A program made the translations under genes and the position numbers. From Pseudotabrizicola formosa (GTDB taxonomy: Bacteria; Pseudomonadota; Alphaproteobacteria; Rhodobacterales; Rhodobacteraceae), in contig NZ_PJOM01000003.1 in NCBI RefSeq assembly GCF_002900965.1, positions 496,001-560,000 of the forward strand: DNA of 64,000 nucleotides, in the 5' to 3' direction. Positions 13,788 to 25,627 of this stretch are shown here, in pieces (within the stretch, counting starts at the first letter, position 1; each line of letters begins with the position of its first letter). The notes below the pieces were generated by a model. The model was not told where the DNA came from. It was given only the letters and a program-made list of their open reading frames with translations, and searched no databases.

Positions 13788-14015
13788 CGGTCACTCCATC
13801 AAAGAGGTGGCGGCGGCGCGGCAATGGCGCGGCATTGCGTCTCACTCTATTGGCGCTGCACTGCAGCGCAAGGGCGCTGTGCGGCCAGAGCCTAAAGTTT
13901 GCAACTTTTGCACCAGCGGCGCGCGCGCCGCGATATTCCGCTTTCCGCGGGTGAAAATGTGAACAAGTCACGAACAGACGCTTTTCATCCCGCCAATCCG
14001 GCGTATAAATGGCTC

Positions 14016-16394
14016 ATGACCGATTGGGATGAAAATGATGCCTTCGAGGCCGCCACCGCACCGCAGCCCGTGCCGCTGTCGCAGCGCGCCATGGCCGCCC
14101 GGCCCGCGCCCTATCTGGATGACCTGAACCCCGCCCAACGCGCGGCGGTCGAGGCGCTGGATGGCCCGGTCCTGATGCTGGCAGGCGCCGGAACCGGCAA
14201 GACCAAGGCGCTGACCAGCCGTATCGTGCACCTTCTGAACACCCAGCGCGCCCGTCCGAATGAAATCCTGTCGGTGACCTTCACCAACAAGGCCGCGCGC
14301 GAGATGAAAGAGCGCGTCGGCCGCCTGCTGGGCCAGGTGGCCGAAGGCATGCCATGGATGGGCACCTTCCACTCGCTGTCGGTGAAAATCCTGCGCCGTC
14401 ATGCCGAACTGGCGGGCCTCAAGCCAAATTTCACCATTCTGGACACCGACGATCAGATCCGCTTGCTCAAGCAACTGATCGCCGCCGCCGATATTGACGA
14501 AAAACGCTGGCCCGCCCGGATGTTGGCCGGGATGATCGACGGCTGGAAGAATCGCGCGCTGACGCCGATGAACGTGCCATCGGCCGAGGCGTCGGGTTTC
14601 AACAACATGGGGACCGAGCTTTACGCCGCCTATCAGGATCGTCTGCGCACGCTCAATGCCACCGATTTCGGCGACCTTCTGCTGCATTGCGTCACCATCT
14701 TTCAGGCCCACCCCGATGTGCTGGGCCAGTACCAGCGCTGGTTCCGCTATATTCTGGTGGATGAATATCAGGATACCAACGTCTGCCAATACCTCTGGCT
14801 GCGCCTCTTGGCGCAATCGCACAAGAACATCTGCTGTGTGGGTGATGACGACCAGTCCATCTACGGCTGGCGCGGGGCCGAGGTCGGCAATATCCTGCGG
14901 TTCGAAAAGGACTTTCCCGGCGCGACCGTGATCAAGCTGGAACAGAACTACCGCTCCACCGCCCATATCCTCGCCGCCGCAAGCGGAGTGATTTCCGCCA
15001 ACAAGGGCCGCCTTGGCAAAACCCTGTGGACGGCGGGGGAGCCGGGCGAAAAGGTGCGCCTGATCGGCCATTGGGATGGGGAGGAAGAGGCGCGCTGGAT
15101 CGGGGAGGAGGCCGAGGCCGTGCAACGCGGCACCCGTGGCATGGGTCCGGTCAGCCTTGATCATCAGGCGATTCTGGTCCGCGCCTCACACCAGATGCGC
15201 GCCTTCGAGGACCGCTTCCTGACCATCGGCCTGCCCTACCGCGTCATCGGCGGCCCGCGCTTTTACGAGCGCCTCGAAATCCGCGACGCCATGGCTTATT
15301 TCCGCCTCGCCGTCTCGCCCGAGGATGATCTGGCCTTTGAGCGGATCATCAACACCCCCAAGCGGGGCCTAGGTGACAAGGCGCAGGGCGACATCCAGCG
15401 CATGGCGCGCGCCGCCGGTGTGCCGCTCTTGGATGGCGCGCGCGAGGCGGTGGCCAAGGGCACGATCGGCGGCAAGGGCGGCGGCCAGCTGCGCCAGTTC
15501 GTCGAAGGGGTGGACCGCTGGCACGCTGCCACACTGGTACCCGAATACAACCACATCGCCCTCGCCGAGCAGATCCTCGACGAATCGGGCTACACCGCCA
15601 TGTGGCAGAACGACAAGACACCGGAAGGACCGGGCCGTCTGGAAAATCTCAAGGAACTGGTCAAGGCGCTGGAACAGTTCGACAATCTTCAAGGCTTTCT
15701 CGAACACGTCAGCCTGATCATGGACAACGAGACCGAAGAGGCGTCGGAAAAGATTTCGATCATGACCCTGCACGCCGCCAAGGGCCTCGAATTCCCCGTG
15801 GTCTTTCTGCCGGGGTGGGAAGACGGGCTGTTTCCCAGCCAGCGCAGCATGGACGAATCGGGGCTGAAGGGCGTCGAGGAAGAACGTCGCCTGGCTTACG
15901 TCGGCATCACCCGCGCGGAAGAGCTGTGCACCATCAGCTTTGCCTCCAACCGCCGGGTCTATGGCCAGTGGCAAAGCCAGCTGCCCTCGCGTTTCATCGA
16001 CGAACTGCCGCCTGAGCATGTCGAGGTGCTCACCCCGCCCGGCCTTTACGGCGGCGGCTTTGGCGCCGCAGCCCCCGTCGGCTTCGGCTCCGGGCTGGAA
16101 GAGCGGGTGTCAAAGGCCGATGTCTACAACTCCCCCGGCTGGCGCCGCTTGCAGGCCGGTCAATCGACCCGGCCCATGCAGCAGCCAAAGGAATCGCGCC
16201 ACGTCACCATCGATGCCGAGGCGATTTCCGCCTTCACCATCGGTGACCGGGTGTTCCACCAGAAATTCGGCTACGGCCATGTGACCGACATCGAAGGCGA
16301 CAAGCTGGACGTTGATTTTGAACACGCGGGCGCAAAGAAACTCGTCGCCCGCTTTGTCACCCCCGCCGCGCAGGCCGATGACGTGCCGTTCTGA
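14016..16394 (+). CDS. uvrD: UvrD/PcrA-type superfamily 1 DNA helicase
   Basis: ATP-driven 3'-5' DNA helicase of 792 residues, acting in nucleotide-excision and mismatch repair. Walker A AGAGTGKT is at 56-63; others seen are TFTNKAAREM (Ia), VDEYQDTN (Walker B), GDDDQSIYGWRGA (III), QNYRS (IV), MTLHAAKGLEFPVVF (V) and EERRLAYVGITRAEE (VI). The C-terminus carries a PcrA/UvrD Tudor-like domain (FTIGDRVFHQKFGYGHVTDIEGDKLDVDF), which contacts RNA polymerase in PcrA. The frame is open 39 codons further up, but ATG 14016 is taken as the start because the upstream part is not conserved-looking. Tail to tail with benE. Confidence 0.95.
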   Translation: MTDWDENDAFEAATAPQPVPLSQRAMAARPAPYLDDLNPAQRAAVEALDGPVLMLAGAGTGKTKALTSRIVHLLNTQRARPNEILSVTFTNKAAREMKERVGRLLGQVAEGMPWMGTFHSLSVKILRRHAELAGLKPNFTILDTDDQIRLLKQLIAAADIDEKRWPARMLAGMIDGWKNRALTPMNVPSAEASGFNNMGTELYAAYQDRLRTLNATDFGDLLLHCVTIFQAHPDVLGQYQRWFRYILVDEYQDTNVCQYLWLRLLAQSHKNICCVGDDDQSIYGWRGAEVGNILRFEKDFPGATVIKLEQNYRSTAHILAAASGVISANKGRLGKTLWTAGEPGEKVRLIGHWDGEEEARWIGEEAEAVQRGTRGMGPVSLDHQAILVRASHQMRAFEDRFLTIGLPYRVIGGPRFYERLEIRDAMAYFRLAVSPEDDLAFERIINTPKRGLGDKAQGDIQRMARAAGVPLLDGAREAVAKGTIGGKGGGQLRQFVEGVDRWHAATLVPEYNHIALAEQILDESGYTAMWQNDKTPEGPGRLENLKELVKALEQFDNLQGFLEHVSLIMDNETEEASEKISIMTLHAAKGLEFPVVFLPGWEDGLFPSQRSMDESGLKGVEEERRLAYVGITRAEELCTISFASNRRVYGQWQSQLPSRFIDELPPEHVEVLTPPGLYGGGFGAAAPVGFGSGLEERVSKADVYNSPGWRRLQAGQSTRPMQQPKESRHVTIDAEAISAFTIGDRVFHQKFGYGHVTDIEGDKLDVDFEHAGAKKLVARFVTPAAQADDVPF

Positions 16395-16412: not shown

Positions 16413-17558
16413 TCAGGCCCGCTTCACCCGTTCCATCGCATAGATCACCAGCCCGGCAATCAGCCCCCAGAACGCCGCCCCCACGCCAAACACCGCCACG
16501 CCCGAACCGCCCACCGCCAGCGTGATCGTTGCGGCAAAGCGTGTGTCGGGCGCCGCATAGGCTCCGGCCAGTGCGCCCGTCAGCGCGCCCAGCAATGCCA
16601 GTGCGACCAAGGCCACCATCACCTGCGGCGGCAGGGCCCCCAGCAGCAGCAGGATCAGCGGGGATCCCAGCCCCAGCAGCACCCAGGCCAACGCGTAAAC
16701 CAACCCGACCTTCCAGCGCTGGCTGCGGTCGGGATGCACATCATCGCCCATGCAGATGGCCGCCGTGATCGCCGCCATGCTGATCGTATGGGCTCCGAAC
16801 ACAGCCGACACTGCTGACAATCCGCCAGTCACGGCCAAGCCCTGCGTCACGGGCGGCTCATAGCCCGCCGCCCGCATCACGGCAAACCCGGGCAGGTTCT
16901 GGCTTGCCATCGTCACCAGATACAGCGGCAGGCCCAGGCCGATCATCACCCCGATGTCCCACTCGGGCGGGATGAACTCCAGCCTCGGTGCCGGAAAGGT
17001 CAGCGCGGGCAGATCCGTCGCGCCGGTACCGAACGCCAGCGCCACCCCGGCTGCCAGTGCCGCCAGCACCGCCAGGGCCGGGTTCCACAGCCGCACCAGC
17101 GCAAAGACCGCGACCATGGGCAAAACCAGTGCGGGCCGCTGCTGCGCGGCCACCGCCCCTTGCAGGCAGAACGGCAACAACACCCCCGCCAGCATGGCCG
17201 CCGCGATTCCATCCGGGATGGCCGCCACCAACCGGCCCAGCGGCTTTACCGCTGCCGTCAGCGCCACCAATCCGCCCGCCAGCACGAAGGCCCCCACCGC
17301 CTGCGGCATGGTGAGTCCGCTGGTCGCCGCGATCAGGGCCGCCCCCGTGGTCGACCAGGCAAGCACCACCGGCACCCTGTTCCACGCCGAAAGACCGGCC
17401 GAGCCGATGGCCTTGGCCAGCGCAATCGCCAGCACCCAGCTGGCGGTCTGCGCCGGGGTTGCCCCGACGGCCAAGGCCGCCGCCAGCACCAGCGCAATGG
17501 TAGATCCATAGCCGACAAGCGCCGCGACAACTGCCGCTGAAATCAAGGAAATCCGCAT
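16413..17558 (-). CDS. benE: BenE-family benzoate/H+ symporter-like permease
   Basis: Membrane protein of 381 residues with 11-12 hydrophobic segments. Family strings include SWVLAIALAKAIGSAGLSAW, PDGIAAAMLAGVLLPFCL, GLPLYLVTMASQNLPGFAV and GAHTISMAAITAAICMGDDVHPD. BenE members take up benzoate with protons; no benzoate-degradation gene is nearby, so the substrate is uncertain. ATG 17558 is chosen since the frame further upstream only reads through the hairpin array. It lies just downstream of that array on the same strand, without a clear terminator between, so it could share the array transcript. Confidence 0.88.
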   Translation of the reverse strand: MRISLISAAVVAALVGYGSTIALVLAAALAVGATPAQTASWVLAIALAKAIGSAGLSAWNRVPVVLAWSTTGAALIAATSGLTMPQAVGAFVLAGGLVALTAAVKPLGRLVAAIPDGIAAAMLAGVLLPFCLQGAVAAQQRPALVLPMVAVFALVRLWNPALAVLAALAAGVALAFGTGATDLPALTFPAPRLEFIPPEWDIGVMIGLGLPLYLVTMASQNLPGFAVMRAAGYEPPVTQGLAVTGGLSAVSAVFGAHTISMAAITAAICMGDDVHPDRSQRWKVGLVYALAWVLLGLGSPLILLLLGALPPQVMVALVALALLGALTGALAGAYAAPDTRFAATITLAVGGSGVAVFGVGAAFWGLIAGLVIYAMERVKRA

Positions 17559-17597: not shown

Positions 17598-17622
17598 CAA
17601 CCGCAACCCCTGAAACTGAAAA

Positions 17623-17656
17623 CGGCGACGCCCAGGGAGGAGGAGGGGCGCCGCCG
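17623..17656 (-). repeat. Array hairpin 12 (last copy, nearest benE)
   Basis: Stem CGGCG-A-CGCCC / GGGCG-C-CGCCG, ten pairs with the same A-C mismatch as hairpins 6 and 8; full loop motif. Confidence 0.88.
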
Positions 17657-17670
17657 CATCATTCACAACC

Positions 17671-17693
17671 GACCCCAGGGAGGAGGAGGGGGC
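17671..17693 (-). repeat. Array hairpin 11 (weak stem)
   Basis: Loop motif with CCCC/GGGG and an outer G-C pair only; the rest of the stem is lost. Confidence 0.65.
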
Positions 17694-17704
17694 CAGCGTA
17701 TCCG

Positions 17705-17744
17705 GGAACCCGAACCCCAGGGAGGAGGAGGGGGCGCAAGTTCC
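17705..17744 (-). repeat. Array hairpin 10
   Basis: Inner CCCC/GGGG and outer GGAAC/GTTCC pairs with an internal loop between them; full loop motif. Confidence 0.75.
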
Positions 17745-17752
17745 GCTTTTCA

Positions 17753-17784
17753 GTCCGACCCCAGGGAGGAGGAGAGGGCAAGAC
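17753..17784 (-). repeat. Array hairpin 9 (weak stem)
   Basis: Full loop motif AGGGAGGAGGAG, but only CCC/GGG next to it and GTC/GAC outside an internal loop. Probably a decaying copy. Confidence 0.65.
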
Positions 17785-17821
17785 CGAACCAGTGTAAGGG
17801 TCAAACCCTTAAATTTCGGTT

Positions 17822-17855
17822 GCGGCGACCCCAGGGAGGAGGAGGGGGCCGCCGC
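17822..17855 (-). repeat. Array hairpin 8
   Basis: Stem GCGGCG-A-CCCC / GGGG-C-CGCCGC, identical in stem and loop to hairpin 6, offset 122 bases. Confidence 0.9.
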
Positions 17856-17864
17856 TGATCCGAC

Positions 17865-17888
17865 CGGCTCAGGGAGGAGGAGGAGCCG
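17865..17888 (-). repeat. Array hairpin 7
   Basis: 6-bp stem CGGCTC / GAGCCG. Duplicate of hairpin 5, offset 122 bases, with a compensatory pair change at 17869/17884. Confidence 0.9.
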
Positions 17889-17943
17889 TTCGAACTGTGG
17901 TGAGGGTCAAGACCATGCTGGCCATGCCCCCGGAATTTCGGGC

Positions 17944-17977
17944 GCGGCGACCCCAGGGAGGAGGAGGGGGCCGCCGC
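17944..17977 (-). repeat. Array hairpin 6
   Basis: Stem GCGGCG-A-CCCC / GGGG-C-CGCCGC: ten pairs with one A-C mismatch. Same hairpin as number 8. Confidence 0.9.
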
Positions 17978-17986
17978 TGATCCGAC

Positions 17987-18010
17987 CGGCCCAGGGAGGA
18001 GGAGGGGCCG
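17987..18010 (-). repeat. Array hairpin 5
   Basis: 6-bp stem CGGCCC / GGGCCG, extended by CGA/TCG beyond one mismatch. Counterpart of hairpin 7; the two differ by a T-A to C-G exchange in the stem. Confidence 0.9.
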
Positions 18011-18058
18011 TTCGAACTGTGGTGAGGGACAGACCCGCAGGTCACCCTCGAATGATCC

Positions 18059-18093
18059 GCGGCACCCTCAGGGAGGAGGAGAAAGGGTGCCGC
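18059..18093 (-). repeat. Array hairpin 4
   Basis: Perfect 10-bp stem GCGGCACCCT / AGGGTGCCGC with 15-base loop CAGGGAGGAGGAGAA. Confidence 0.92.
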
Positions 18094-18102
18094 TGTTCCG
18101 AC

Positions 18103-18128
18103 CGGTCTCCGGGAGGAGGTAGAGACCG
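18103..18128 (-). repeat. Array hairpin 3
   Basis: Perfect 7-bp stem CGGTCTC / GAGACCG with loop CGGGAGGAGGTA. Between hairpins 2 and 3 a separate small hairpin AGAGC-GTTA-GCTCT lies at 18142-18155. Confidence 0.9.
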
Positions 18129-18165
18129 TCCGTATAACGTAAGAGCGTTAGCTCTGTATTAAAGG

Positions 18166-18199
18166 GCGTCGGCATCAGGGAGGAGGTTGATGCCGACGC
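18166..18199 (-). repeat. Array hairpin 2
   Basis: Perfect 11-bp stem GCGTCGGCATC / GATGCCGACGC with 12-base loop AGGGAGGAGGTT. The longest stem in the array. Confidence 0.92.
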
Positions 18200-18207
18200 T
18201 TTTGCTA

Positions 18208-18236
18208 CGGGCCCCAGGGAGGAGGAGGGGGCCCCG
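18208..18236 (-). repeat. Array hairpin 1 (nearest the DUF1127 gene)
   Basis: CGGGCCCC pairs with GGGGCCCCG (one bulged base) around AGGGAGGAGGAG. It starts 10 bases after the DUF1127 stop. Confidence 0.85.
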
Positions 18237-18245
18237 CAAAGAAAT

Positions 18246-18461
18246 TCACTTGCCGTAGGCAGCCTCGTTGGCCACGCGCGTGATCATGGTGCGGTGAATG
18301 CCCAGATCAGCCAGTTCGCGGTTCGACAGCGCCTGCAGTTCCCGCACGGTCTGTTTGAACACCCGGCGCCGTTCCAGACCGACGCGAATGGTTTTCACAA
18401 TGGCCGCAGCCCGGTCAGCAATACCGTAGGACGCGGTACGCGATGAGTTTACATATGCCAT
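18246..18461 (-). CDS. DUF1127 small protein, CcaF1-like
   Basis: 71 residues, basic, with the DUF1127 core in its second half (RRRVFKQTVRELQALSNREL, then ADLGIHRTMI). In R. sphaeroides the DUF1127 protein encoded just ahead of the CcsR RNAs (CcaF1) binds RNA and helps their maturation; same position and same strand here make this the probable counterpart. GAGAGG lies about 10 bases before ATG 18461. A heat-shock-sigma-like promoter sits about 60 bases upstream of the start. DUF1127 proteins have many paralogues, so the link rests mainly on context. Confidence 0.9.
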   Translation of the reverse strand: MAYVNSSRTASYGIADRAAAIVKTIRVGLERRRVFKQTVRELQALSNRELADLGIHRTMITRVANEAAYGK

Positions 18462-18519: not shown

Positions 18520-18548
18520 AACATGGGGCAAATGCTGCATCTGCACAA
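18520..18548 (-). promoter_or_regulatory. RpoH-like promoter of the DUF1127/sRNA array unit
   Basis: On the minus strand TTGTGC (18543-18548), 14 bases, then CCCCATGTT (18520-18528). The -10 fits the sigma-32 form CCCCATnT and the spacing is right; the -35 is only TTG plus. R. sphaeroides transcribes its CcsR locus from RpoHI/RpoHII promoters, which agrees. Confidence 0.6.
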
Positions 18549-18717
18549 TAGGGCGGTTGCGCAATGCTGCCATGCAGAACCCGCATGGCTTAACGTCACA
18601 GAAACGTCATTATTTACAGCATCTTCGCGCAAATTTTGAGCGTTTGGTCAAGCAATCCTTGAGCTTTCGTGCAAAGATCGCAACTGTGCTGCAAGGACAG
18701 GCAAAAGGAAAACAACC

Positions 18718-19803
18718 ATGGGTGTCTCGCGCGAAACGGTGATGGCGGCGCTGGCCGGAATCGCCCTGCCCGGCGGCGGAAACCTTGTGTCGCAAGACAT
18801 GATCCGGGCGCTGACCATCGACGATGCCGAGGCCGGGGCAACCGTGCGATTCGTGATCGAGGCTGCGAGCCCGGAGGCGGCGCGTCAGATGTCCGCTGTG
18901 CAGGCACAGGCCGAGGTTGCCTTGCGCGCGCTGCCCGGTGTGGTGGCCGTACAGGCTGTCACCACCGCCCACGGCCCTGCCACCAAGCCTGCAGCCCCCA
19001 GCCTGAAGATCGGCCAGCACCCGACACCGCAGCAGGGCGGGCCGCAAAAGCTGACCGGAATCGACCGGATCATTGCCATTGGCTCGGGCAAAGGGGGGGT
19101 GGGCAAATCCACGGTCTCGTCAAACCTCGCCGTGGCCCTTGCCCGGCAAGGCCGCCGCGTCGGCCTGCTGGATGCCGATATCTATGGCCCCAGTCAGCCG
19201 CGCATGATGGGGGTCAACCGCCGCCCCGCCAGCCCCGATGGCAAGATCATCGAACCGGTCATTGCCCATGGTGTCACCATGATGTCCTTGGGCCTGATGC
19301 TCAAGGCGGATGAGGCCGTGATCTGGCGCGGTCCGATGATCATGGGCGCGTTGCAGCAACTGCTCACGCAGGTGGCCTGGGGAGAGCTGGACATCCTGCT
19401 GATCGACCTGCCCCCCGGCACCGGTGACATCCAGCTGACCCTGTGCCAGCGCACGCAACTGACCGGCGCCATCGTTGTGTCAACTCCGCAGGACGTGGCG
19501 CTGCTGGATGCGCGCAAGGCACTGGATATGTTCCTCAAGCTTAAAACCCCTGTGCTCGGCCTGATCGAAAACATGTCGACCTTCTGCTGTCCCAACTGCG
19601 GACATGAGACGCAGATCTTTGGCCATGGCGGGGTCAAGGCCGATGCCGCCCGGCTCGATCTGCCCTTCCTGGGGGAATTGCCGCTGACCCTTGCCGTGCG
19701 CGAGGCCGGCGACTCCGGCACCCCCATCGCCGCCACCGATGCGCCAGAGGCAGAGGCCTATGCCCGGCTTGCCCACCGCCTGATCGCCGGCGGCATGGCG
19801 TGA
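18718..19803 (+). CDS. mrp: Mrp/ApbC-type Fe-S cluster carrier ATPase
   Basis: P-loop scaffold of 361 residues that binds an Fe-S cluster and passes it to apoproteins. An N-terminal MIP18-like (DUF59) domain (residues 1-85) leads to the deviant Walker [11 protein letters not shown] at 122-131, then [31 protein letters not shown] and the cluster motif CPNC near 282-285. ATG 18718 fits the family; a purine-rich AGGAAAAC precedes it. Monocistronic, divergent from the DUF1127 unit. A 10-bp stem-loop follows it. Confidence 0.94.
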
Positions 19804-24133: not shown

Positions 24134-25627
24134 ATGGCACCGCAACGGGCACATCCTCGCGCACCCCGCCGCGCGACTCTGGCAGATCTGGGTCTGACGC
24201 CGCGGGCCGGTGCCAATCCCGTGATCCTCGGGCTTACGGTCGACAGCCGGGCGGTGCAGCCCGGTTTTCTCTTTGCGGCCCTGCCCGGCAGCCGGGTGCA
24301 TGGGGCCAGCTTCGCGGCCACCGCGCTGGAGCAGGGGGCCGCTGCCATCCTGACCGATGCCGCCGGTGCCCGCCTGCTGCCCTCCGGACCCACCCCGGTT
24401 GTGGTGGTCGAAGACGCGCGTGAGGCGCTGGCCCGCGCGGCCAGCCTGTGGTTCATGGCCCAGCCCGCCCGCATGGTCGCCGTCACCGGGACCAACGGCA
24501 AGACCTCGGTCGCCACCTTCACCCGCCAGATCTGGGAAGCGCTGGACCACCCCGCCATCAACATCGGCACAACGGGGGTCGAGGGCGCATGGACCGCCCC
24601 TTCGGCCTATACCACGCCAGATGCCATCACGCTGCACGCGATGCTGGCGCAGGCAGCTGCGGCGGGCGTGACCCATGGCGCGATGGAGGCCTCCTCCCAC
24701 GGCCTTGACCAGCGCCGGATGGATGGCGTGCGCCTGTGTGCCGCCGGCTTCACCAATCTGACGCAGGACCATCTGGATTACCACGGCACCATGGAGGCCT
24801 ATCTGGCCGCCAAATCCGCCTTGTTCTCGCGTCTCTTGCCCGATGACGCGGTGGCCGTGGTCAACCTGAACGGCGCGCATGGCTCAGAGATTGTGGAGCT
24901 CTGCCTTGACCGGGGTCTGCCCACCATGACGATCGGCCATGGCCAGGGCGCCGATCTGCGCCTGCTGTCGCACCGCTATGACGCCACCGGGCAGGATCTG
25001 CGCTTTTCCTGGCAGGGCCAGCCGCACATGACCCGCCTGAACCTTGTGGGCGGGTTTCAGGCCGAGAACGTGGCCCTCGGGGCGGGCCTCGCCATCGCCT
25101 CGGGGGACAACCCGCAGGCAGTCTTTGCCACCTTCCCGAAACTCACCGGCGTGCGCGGCCGCATGCAACTGGCCGCCACGCGCAGCAACGGTGCGGCCGT
25201 CTATGTCGATTATGCCCACACGCCAGACGCCATCGAGACCGCGCTCAAGGCGCTTCGCCCGCATGTCATGGGCCGGATCATCATCGTCTTCGGCGCAGGC
25301 GGCGACCGTGACACCACCAAGCGCCCCCTGATGGGGGCCGCCGCCGCCGCCCATGCCGATGTGCTCTTCGTCACCGATGACAACCCCCGCTCCGAGGACC
25401 CCGCCAGCATCCGCGCCGCCATCCTGGCCGCCTGCCCGGAGGCCACCGAGGTCGGCGACCGCGCCGAGGCCATCCTGCGCGGTGTCGATGCCCTGCAACC
25501 CGGCGATGCCCTGCTGATCGCGGGCAAGGGGCACGAAACCGGCCAGACCATCGGGGGCCAGGTCTACCCGTTTGATGATGTCGAACAGGCCAGCGTCGCT
25601 GTCGCCGCCCTTGATGGGGTGATCTGA
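24134..25627 (+). CDS. murE: UDP-MurNAc-tripeptide synthetase (meso-Dap adding)
   Basis: Mur ligase of 497 residues that adds meso-diaminopimelate to UDP-MurNAc-L-Ala-D-Glu. P-loop VTGTNGKTSVATF near 116-128; GVTHGAMEASSHGLDQRRMDG; the Dap-recognition motif DNPRSEDP points to meso-Dap rather than lysine; the C-terminal GKGHETGQ is also seen. One-base overlap with murF (TGATG). Confidence 0.96.
   Translation: MAPQRAHPRAPRRATLADLGLTPRAGANPVILGLTVDSRAVQPGFLFAALPGSRVHGASFAATALEQGAAAILTDAAGARLLPSGPTPVVVVEDAREALARAASLWFMAQPARMVAVTGTNGKTSVATFTRQIWEALDHPAINIGTTGVEGAWTAPSAYTTPDAITLHAMLAQAAAAGVTHGAMEASSHGLDQRRMDGVRLCAAGFTNLTQDHLDYHGTMEAYLAAKSALFSRLLPDDAVAVVNLNGAHGSEIVELCLDRGLPTMTIGHGQGADLRLLSHRYDATGQDLRFSWQGQPHMTRLNLVGGFQAENVALGAGLAIASGDNPQAVFATFPKLTGVRGRMQLAATRSNGAAVYVDYAHTPDAIETALKALRPHVMGRIIIVFGAGGDRDTTKRPLMGAAAAAHADVLFVTDDNPRSEDPASIRAAILAACPEATEVGDRAEAILRGVDALQPGDALLIAGKGHETGQTIGGQVYPFDDVEQASVAVAALDGVI

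Follow-up and report, generated by a model that had tools for sequence, protein, structure and literature searches.

How many regulatory RNAs does a row of twelve similar hairpins behind a DUF1127 gene stand for, and is such a row unusual? The locus that raises this question lies in a window of 64,000 nucleotides (the whole stretch of DNA analysed) and was read in the initial annotation as a minus-strand array of CcsR/cuckoo kind, well above the four known in Rhodobacter sphaeroides and expected, if every copy is cut out, to give twelve regulators from one promoter. The identity, the strand and the CcaF1-like DUF1127 context are borne out by the analysis; the record and the number of regulators are not. 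Judged by sequence, the locus is a further member of the known CcsR/cuckoo 'CIN1' kind, in Pseudotabrizicola-like Rhodobacteraceae, and we put at roughly 0.8 the probability that it is a ccaF1-CcsR locus whose stress transcript is processed to about five anti-Shine-Dalgarno RNAs.

The twelve exact copies of GGGAGGAGG (+) at 17635-18225, as first annotated, are far above chance: counting both strands, the whole window holds 14 matches where 0.64 would be expected, and 0 of 100 shuffles got to 14. Two stray copies lie outside the array, at 15103-15111 (+), inside a large ORF (13899-16394), and at 24690-24698 (-). For the minus strand of 17600-18250 the predicted folding energy is -303.7 kcal/mol (z = -6.5 relative to 20 shuffled sequences), and CCUCCUCCC lies in the loop of every hairpin. 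Single folds in which the motif is kept open give all twelve hairpins stems of 10-15 base pairs and loops of 10-13 nt, so that the earlier description of three of them as standing on short or interrupted stems was too pessimistic; several stems contain an interruption of one to four bases. The nine loop bases are identical across the array hairpins while the stems vary.

The motif gaps (39, 67, 40, 77, 38, 84, 38, 70, 44, 42 and 43) form two tiers, which group the hairpins as 2+2+2+2+4 in RNA order, and the same tiers dominate the family, where, of 958 gaps in 130 arrays, 629 measure 35-49 nt and 231 measure 60-84 nt. Small motif-free hairpins are predicted in all four inter-unit spacers. Given this spacing, and since the Rfam model for CcsR1 (RF02791, 83 nt, gathering score 65.3) comprises two hairpins, the twelve hairpins probably represent five units and thus about five RNAs rather than twelve regulators, although the four-hairpin unit could be cleaved further. 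The two-tier spacing is compatible with RNase E maturation into separate two-hairpin RNAs.

In RNA order, the first array hairpin begins 5 nt past the stop codon of the 71-aa DUF1127 gene. Unit 1, CcsR1 (18166-18240, -), consists of hairpin 1 (18201-18240) and hairpin 2 (18166-18199) and is identified by RF02791, covariation and its stems. A covariance-model search had been proposed as a check, and RF02791 accepts unit 1 at 73.2 bits, above gathering and thus as CcsR1; it is the single array unit to score so, four further places giving 42.3-56.5 bits (E 7e-13 to 1.1e-8), below gathering, and one more 19 bits. A motif-free spacer hairpin, AGAGC-TAAC-GCTCT (18142-18155, -), is seen in sequence and fold between units 1 and 2. 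Unit 2 (hairpins 3 and 4; 18054-18132, -) is placed by alignment, by its stems and by an RF02791 match of 56.5 bits (E 7e-13, below gathering). Unit 3 (hairpins 5 and 6; 17939-18017, -; 44.5 bits) is a near-copy of unit 4 (hairpins 7 and 8; 17817-17895, -; 48.6 bits), hairpins 5 and 6 being 96% identical to 7 and 8, and both units score below gathering. Unit 5 (17617-17788, -) contains hairpins 9-12 at a spacing of 42-44 nt and is defined by spacing and folds, with RF02791 scores of 42.3 bits for hairpins 11-12 and 19 bits for hairpins 9-10.

Covariation supports the pairing in unit 1. In an alignment of 35 hand-picked loci with a first gap of 36-43 nt (35 of 36, L016 being omitted as a duplicate of L203), compensatory double changes are found in 20 of 22 pairs, and 94.3% of the cells are paired against 79.7% after shuffling, a level reached by 0 of 500 shuffles; sliding the partner by 1-3 columns brings pairing down to 39-54%. 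The alignment contains 49 G-U cells and 9 A-C cells, an excess that favours the minus strand as the RNA. The array combines adjacent hairpins, CCUCCUCCC in each loop (12/12) and compensated variable stems in unit 1, as in the cuckoo RNA/CcsR family, with a short, same-strand DUF1127 gene directly upstream, as in a CIN1 locus. For unit 2 (13 loci) 6 of 19 pairs show compensatory double changes. Ten chosen loci were aligned over the four-hairpin end; only 10 of 45 pairs covary there, and the RNAalifold consensus finds hairpins 9 and 12 but mispairs the middle two. Single folds were used for the terminal hairpins instead.

Hairpin 12 (17617-17661, -) has a G+C-rich stem running into TTTT, and is probably motif hairpin and intrinsic terminator in one, as its sequence and the statistics of such T runs suggest. 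In 64 of 130 arrays the last motif hairpin has a T4 run where its stem ends, against 19 of 958 other motif hairpins. An extra terminator-like hairpin stands at most 170 nt downstream in 27 of the 130 (5 of 129 for an upstream control stretch), and for 11 of them, including that of the R. sphaeroides-like locus, the loop is by eye a shortened motif. From these two features, the terminator of many arrays seems itself to belong to the repeat family.

Immediately upstream in RNA order, as the initial annotation had it, an ORF at 18246-18461 (-) encodes the CcaF1-like DUF1127 protein of 71 aa (PF06568, 46.6 bits, cut-off 23.3), a small protein of RNA-binding type. Before it lies a conserved promoter-like block, ATTGTGCAGATGCAGCA-TTTG-CCCCATGT (18521-18549, -), with an RpoH/sigma-32-like -10 element. 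Across 34 upstream regions (the window, 27 named loci and 6 others) TTGTGCA..NGCAG is present in all, followed after 4-8 nt by NCCCATNT in 27, of which 23 have CCCCATNT; the exceptions are L034, L036, L039, L054, L066, L073 and L087. We take CCCCATNT to fit the sigma-32 -10 consensus. On this consensus, and on the promoter published for the CcsR locus, the block looks like an RpoH-type promoter. Passages of PMC3320616 and PMC10253847 describe that published promoter as RpoHI/II-dependent. The genome has the 17-nt promoter core ATTGTGCANNYGCAGMA three times: once ahead of each of the two DUF1127-hairpin operons, and once before a LacI-like regulator gene (named by eye), a match that is without the CCCCATGT element and was taken as chance. 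Upstream of the promoter block, at 18560-18589 (-), the inverted repeat CCATGC...GCATGG, with CAGCATTGC behind it, resembles a regulator site, and its loose form CATGC-N5-9-GCAT is found in 29 of the 34 regions. The array is flanked downstream by a BenE family transporter gene (16413-17558, -; TIGR00843, 262.8 bits) and divergently by an ApbC/Mrp-like Fe-S carrier gene (18718-19803, +; best NCBIfam match ApbC, below cut-off), both outside it. The locus shows synteny: among 80 named loci the ApbC-like gene is present in 61 and the BenE-like gene in 21.

The second of these operons (G000:C7:1409241-1409674; about 1742-2175 of L193) is a mini-array with a promoter block as at the main locus. It contains the one further RF02791-like place of the genome (G000:C7:1409597-1409674, 38.3 bits, below cut-off), preceded by a second DUF1127 gene of 86 aa (PF06568, 32.5 bits), and consists of one exact CCUCCUCCC hairpin and a terminator hairpin with the degenerate loop GTCCTCCCCC. 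Counterparts lie in nine other genus genomes, and of the 10 places, that of the window's own genome among them, 8 retain the nine-base motif exactly.

Copy number was compared across 394 Rhodobacteraceae genomes, about one per genus. RF02791 matches at E <= 0.001 in 324 of them, 18 above cut-off, against one of 14 control genomes with a sub-threshold match, and the exact-motif pair pattern is present in 295. A reversed control pattern was unclean, with 8 matches in G311 and 3 in the window's own genome, because C-rich sequence near the motif can match it. Twenty of the 394 genomes have more close one-strand pairs than the window's seven, counted per genome and not per array. Of 130 distinct arrays with at least three motifs, 27 have at least 12 hairpins, 18 have more than 12 and the largest has 26, in a set biased upward by about 15 genomes chosen for high counts and by many near relatives. 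The 80 named loci, a less biased set, include 66 with at least three motifs behind the gene, 12 with at least 12 and 6 with none; the median is 8 hairpins among the 66 and 7 over all 80, where contig ends shorten some. In another less biased sample, 49 genomes taken in listing order and each with at least one motif pair, 41 loci hold 42 arrays with three motifs or more; their median is 5, and three arrays have at least 12 hairpins. These counts (27/130, 12/80 and 3/42) rule out that twelve is exceptional: the window lies in the upper range for Rhodobacteraceae and holds no record. The largest array, L092 (G165:C1:333000-338000), has 26 motif hairpins with recurring gaps of 42, 47 and 51, as if a unit of three hairpins, about 140 nt long, had been repeated in tandem. 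Literature titles and abstracts on CcsR, cuckoo and CIN1 gave no description of family-wide array sizes, and we make no claim that such a census is unpublished.

Closer to the window, the nearest named relatives are Pseudotabrizicola (L008-L013), with DUF1127 proteins 94-96% identical and 12, 12, 13, 10, 16 and 12 hairpins, respectively (L012 contains N). In the wider genus group, 15 members including the window have 7 to 16 hairpins; the sixteenth genus genome, G405, which is fragmented, gave no match. Comparison hairpin by hairpin reveals counterparts of window units 1 and 2 and of the four-hairpin end in the near species, and the central two-hairpin unit (hairpins 5-6/7-8) is present once in L011 and L014, twice in the window, L008, L009 and L013, and three times in L010. 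The L012 array is rearranged, and L010, L012, L205 and L207 miss one unit 1 hairpin in its exact form. We tentatively propose, while thinking it somewhat doubtful, that the array may act as an evolvable dose dial, with its ends, the first unit and a terminal RNA of several hairpins that serves also as terminator, kept and its middle unit gained or lost (1-3 copies in near Pseudotabrizicola species, 3-26 hairpins in the family), and with seven units, not four, in R. sphaeroides. As copy number differs among close relatives with otherwise similar arrays, a dose effect of anti-Shine-Dalgarno RNAs would be directly testable.

For the mechanism we rely on R. sphaeroides, where passages of PMC10253847, PMC8307010, PMC7866481 and PMC3320616 describe co-transcription of CcsR with ccaF1, RNase E processing and flhR as a target, and passages of PMC7866481, PMC8625941 and PMC8307010 the processing, induction and silencing by CcsR1-4. 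By analogy, one RpoH-type stress promoter would transcribe the DUF1127 mRNA together with its twelve-hairpin 3' part, and RNase E would cleave in the spacers to leave four CcsR RNAs of two hairpins each and a fifth RNA of four hairpins, the last of which would be the transcription terminator. The exposed loops would pair with purine-rich Shine-Dalgarno stretches of target mRNAs and block their translation, as is described in passages of PMC10746234 for NfeR1, a relative with identical loops that silences ntrB through them. Duplication or loss of the central unit between species would then shift the dose and leave the loops unchanged.

Identical loops on varying stems, and an array as large as 26 hairpins, might also be expected of an unprocessed or partly processed multi-hairpin RNA that soaks up CcaF1, Hfq or RNase E, in which case the number of hairpins would count over the number of RNAs. 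CcaF1 is described as binding RNA and affecting CcsR maturation (in passages of PMC10253847) and the CcsR RNAs as Hfq-dependent or Hfq-interacting (in passages of PMC7866481 and PMC8307010), both of which would suit such a titrator. We nevertheless consider it improbable, as the flhR target and separate CcsR RNAs are published for R. sphaeroides (passages of PMC10253847 and PMC8307010) and it is the loop that is conserved, not any particular stem sequence. Still less likely, to the point of being very hard to credit, is that the hairpins serve chiefly to stabilise the 3' end of the DUF1127 mRNA and have no activity in trans: they do lie in its 3' untranslated part and the last is terminator-like, but a pure stabiliser needs no conserved loop, whereas here the nine bases of the loop stay constant and the stems vary in a compensated way, and the published passages present the CcsR RNAs as separate and stress-induced. 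That the GGGAGGAGG strand is translated or binds protein as DNA can be set aside, since, although open frames cross parts of the array, no more than 3 of the 11 motif gaps are divisible by three, a count that speaks against a coding repeat, and covariation and the G-U excess point to a minus-strand RNA.

If the loops of the processed CcsR-like RNAs act on Shine-Dalgarno sequences, perfect partners for them are few. The 9-nt loop complement precedes an ATG at four places in the genome, one within the array itself and two yielding ORFs of 11 and 28 aa, and an 8-nt complement at 18; with perfect complements this rare, broad anti-Shine-Dalgarno action would rest mostly on partial pairing. The one sizeable gene with the full complement GGGAGGAGG is propionate-CoA-ligase-like (L189), and a search for 9-nt matches found the complement before this gene in 7 of 16 genus genomes, own included (L189, L217, L229, L234, L244, L245 and L246); for the ortholog L245 the best NCBIfam match is PRK10524, whose cut-off of 955 bits is not reached (707 bits). 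Among family orthologs (30 loci, 4 without a start) a complement of at least 7 nt is present in 18 of 26, compared with 0 of 78 ORFs of the window, a rough background set with spurious ORFs among them. When 61 genomes were searched (5 unused, 2 more without a start), such complements were found in 21 of 31 genomes with at least two motif pairs, 4 of 13 intermediate genomes and 2 of 10 with neither pairs nor RF02791, the outer groups differing at Fisher p = 0.012 with kinship ignored. A control acetate-CoA-ligase paralog shows the same trend (6 of 9 against 1 of 9, p = 0.02, kinship likewise ignored; 2 of 20 dropped and some starts doubtful). General Shine-Dalgarno strength may therefore explain the complements, and the propionate-CoA-ligase-like gene is only a lead as a CcsR target; no target is claimed.

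The known system closest to the window is CcsR1-4/RSs0680a-d of Rhodobacter (Cereibacter) sphaeroides (RF02791), which likewise stands behind a 71-aa DUF1127 gene, ccaF1 (RSP_6037), and has two-hairpin units with CCUCCUCCC loops, an RpoH-like promoter block and a terminator hairpin at the end. The four CcsR in the published passages are four RNAs (PMC10253847, PMC8307010), and RSs0680a (CcsR1) is given two stem loops (PMC3927594). Setting twelve against four thus compared hairpins with RNAs. According to the Billenkamp 2015 abstract the other three RNAs reportedly also have two hairpins each, which makes the published number about eight hairpins. With the false record removed, what is gained is a family-wide frame for CcsR-like RNAs, in which hairpin number varies widely. 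Within it, the window's five units (12 hairpins) stand against the four published RNAs and against seven units (14 hairpins) at locus L093 (G051:C4:691000-693500) of a 2.4.1-like assembly, G051, a plasmid piece of which shows 100% identity to plasmids on record for Cereibacter sphaeroides 2.4.1. Units 3-7 of that array, five in all, are nearly identical, and motif-pair matches in four other genomes of its genus indicate four units in three (one with the locus on two contigs) and five in one; seven rather than the published four may be a difference of strain, assembly or naming. Unit 1 of L093 aligns with unit 1 of the window. The last unit of the window has four hairpins with the exact motif in the terminator, whereas the terminator loop of the R. 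sphaeroides-like locus is degenerate.

The ar14/NfeR1/SmelA075/SmelA099 RNAs of rhizobia, with three or four hairpins, carry the same anti-Shine-Dalgarno loops, and NfeR1 differs in having its own promoter (passages of PMC3927594 and PMC10746234 for the former, of PMC10746234 for the latter). The Rfam model of ar14 (RF02344), which has a U-rich tail, matches the window units at 43-48 bits (best 48.0), under its gathering score of 58.8. NfeR1 is not known to stand behind a DUF1127 gene. The cuckoo RNA family and its CIN1 locus are said, after Reinkensmeier and Giegerich 2015, to have 2-4 adjacent hairpins per RNA and a DUF1127 neighbour. The locus shares with this family the variable stems, the constant loop and the DUF1127 neighbour, and the one difference found is the number of units.
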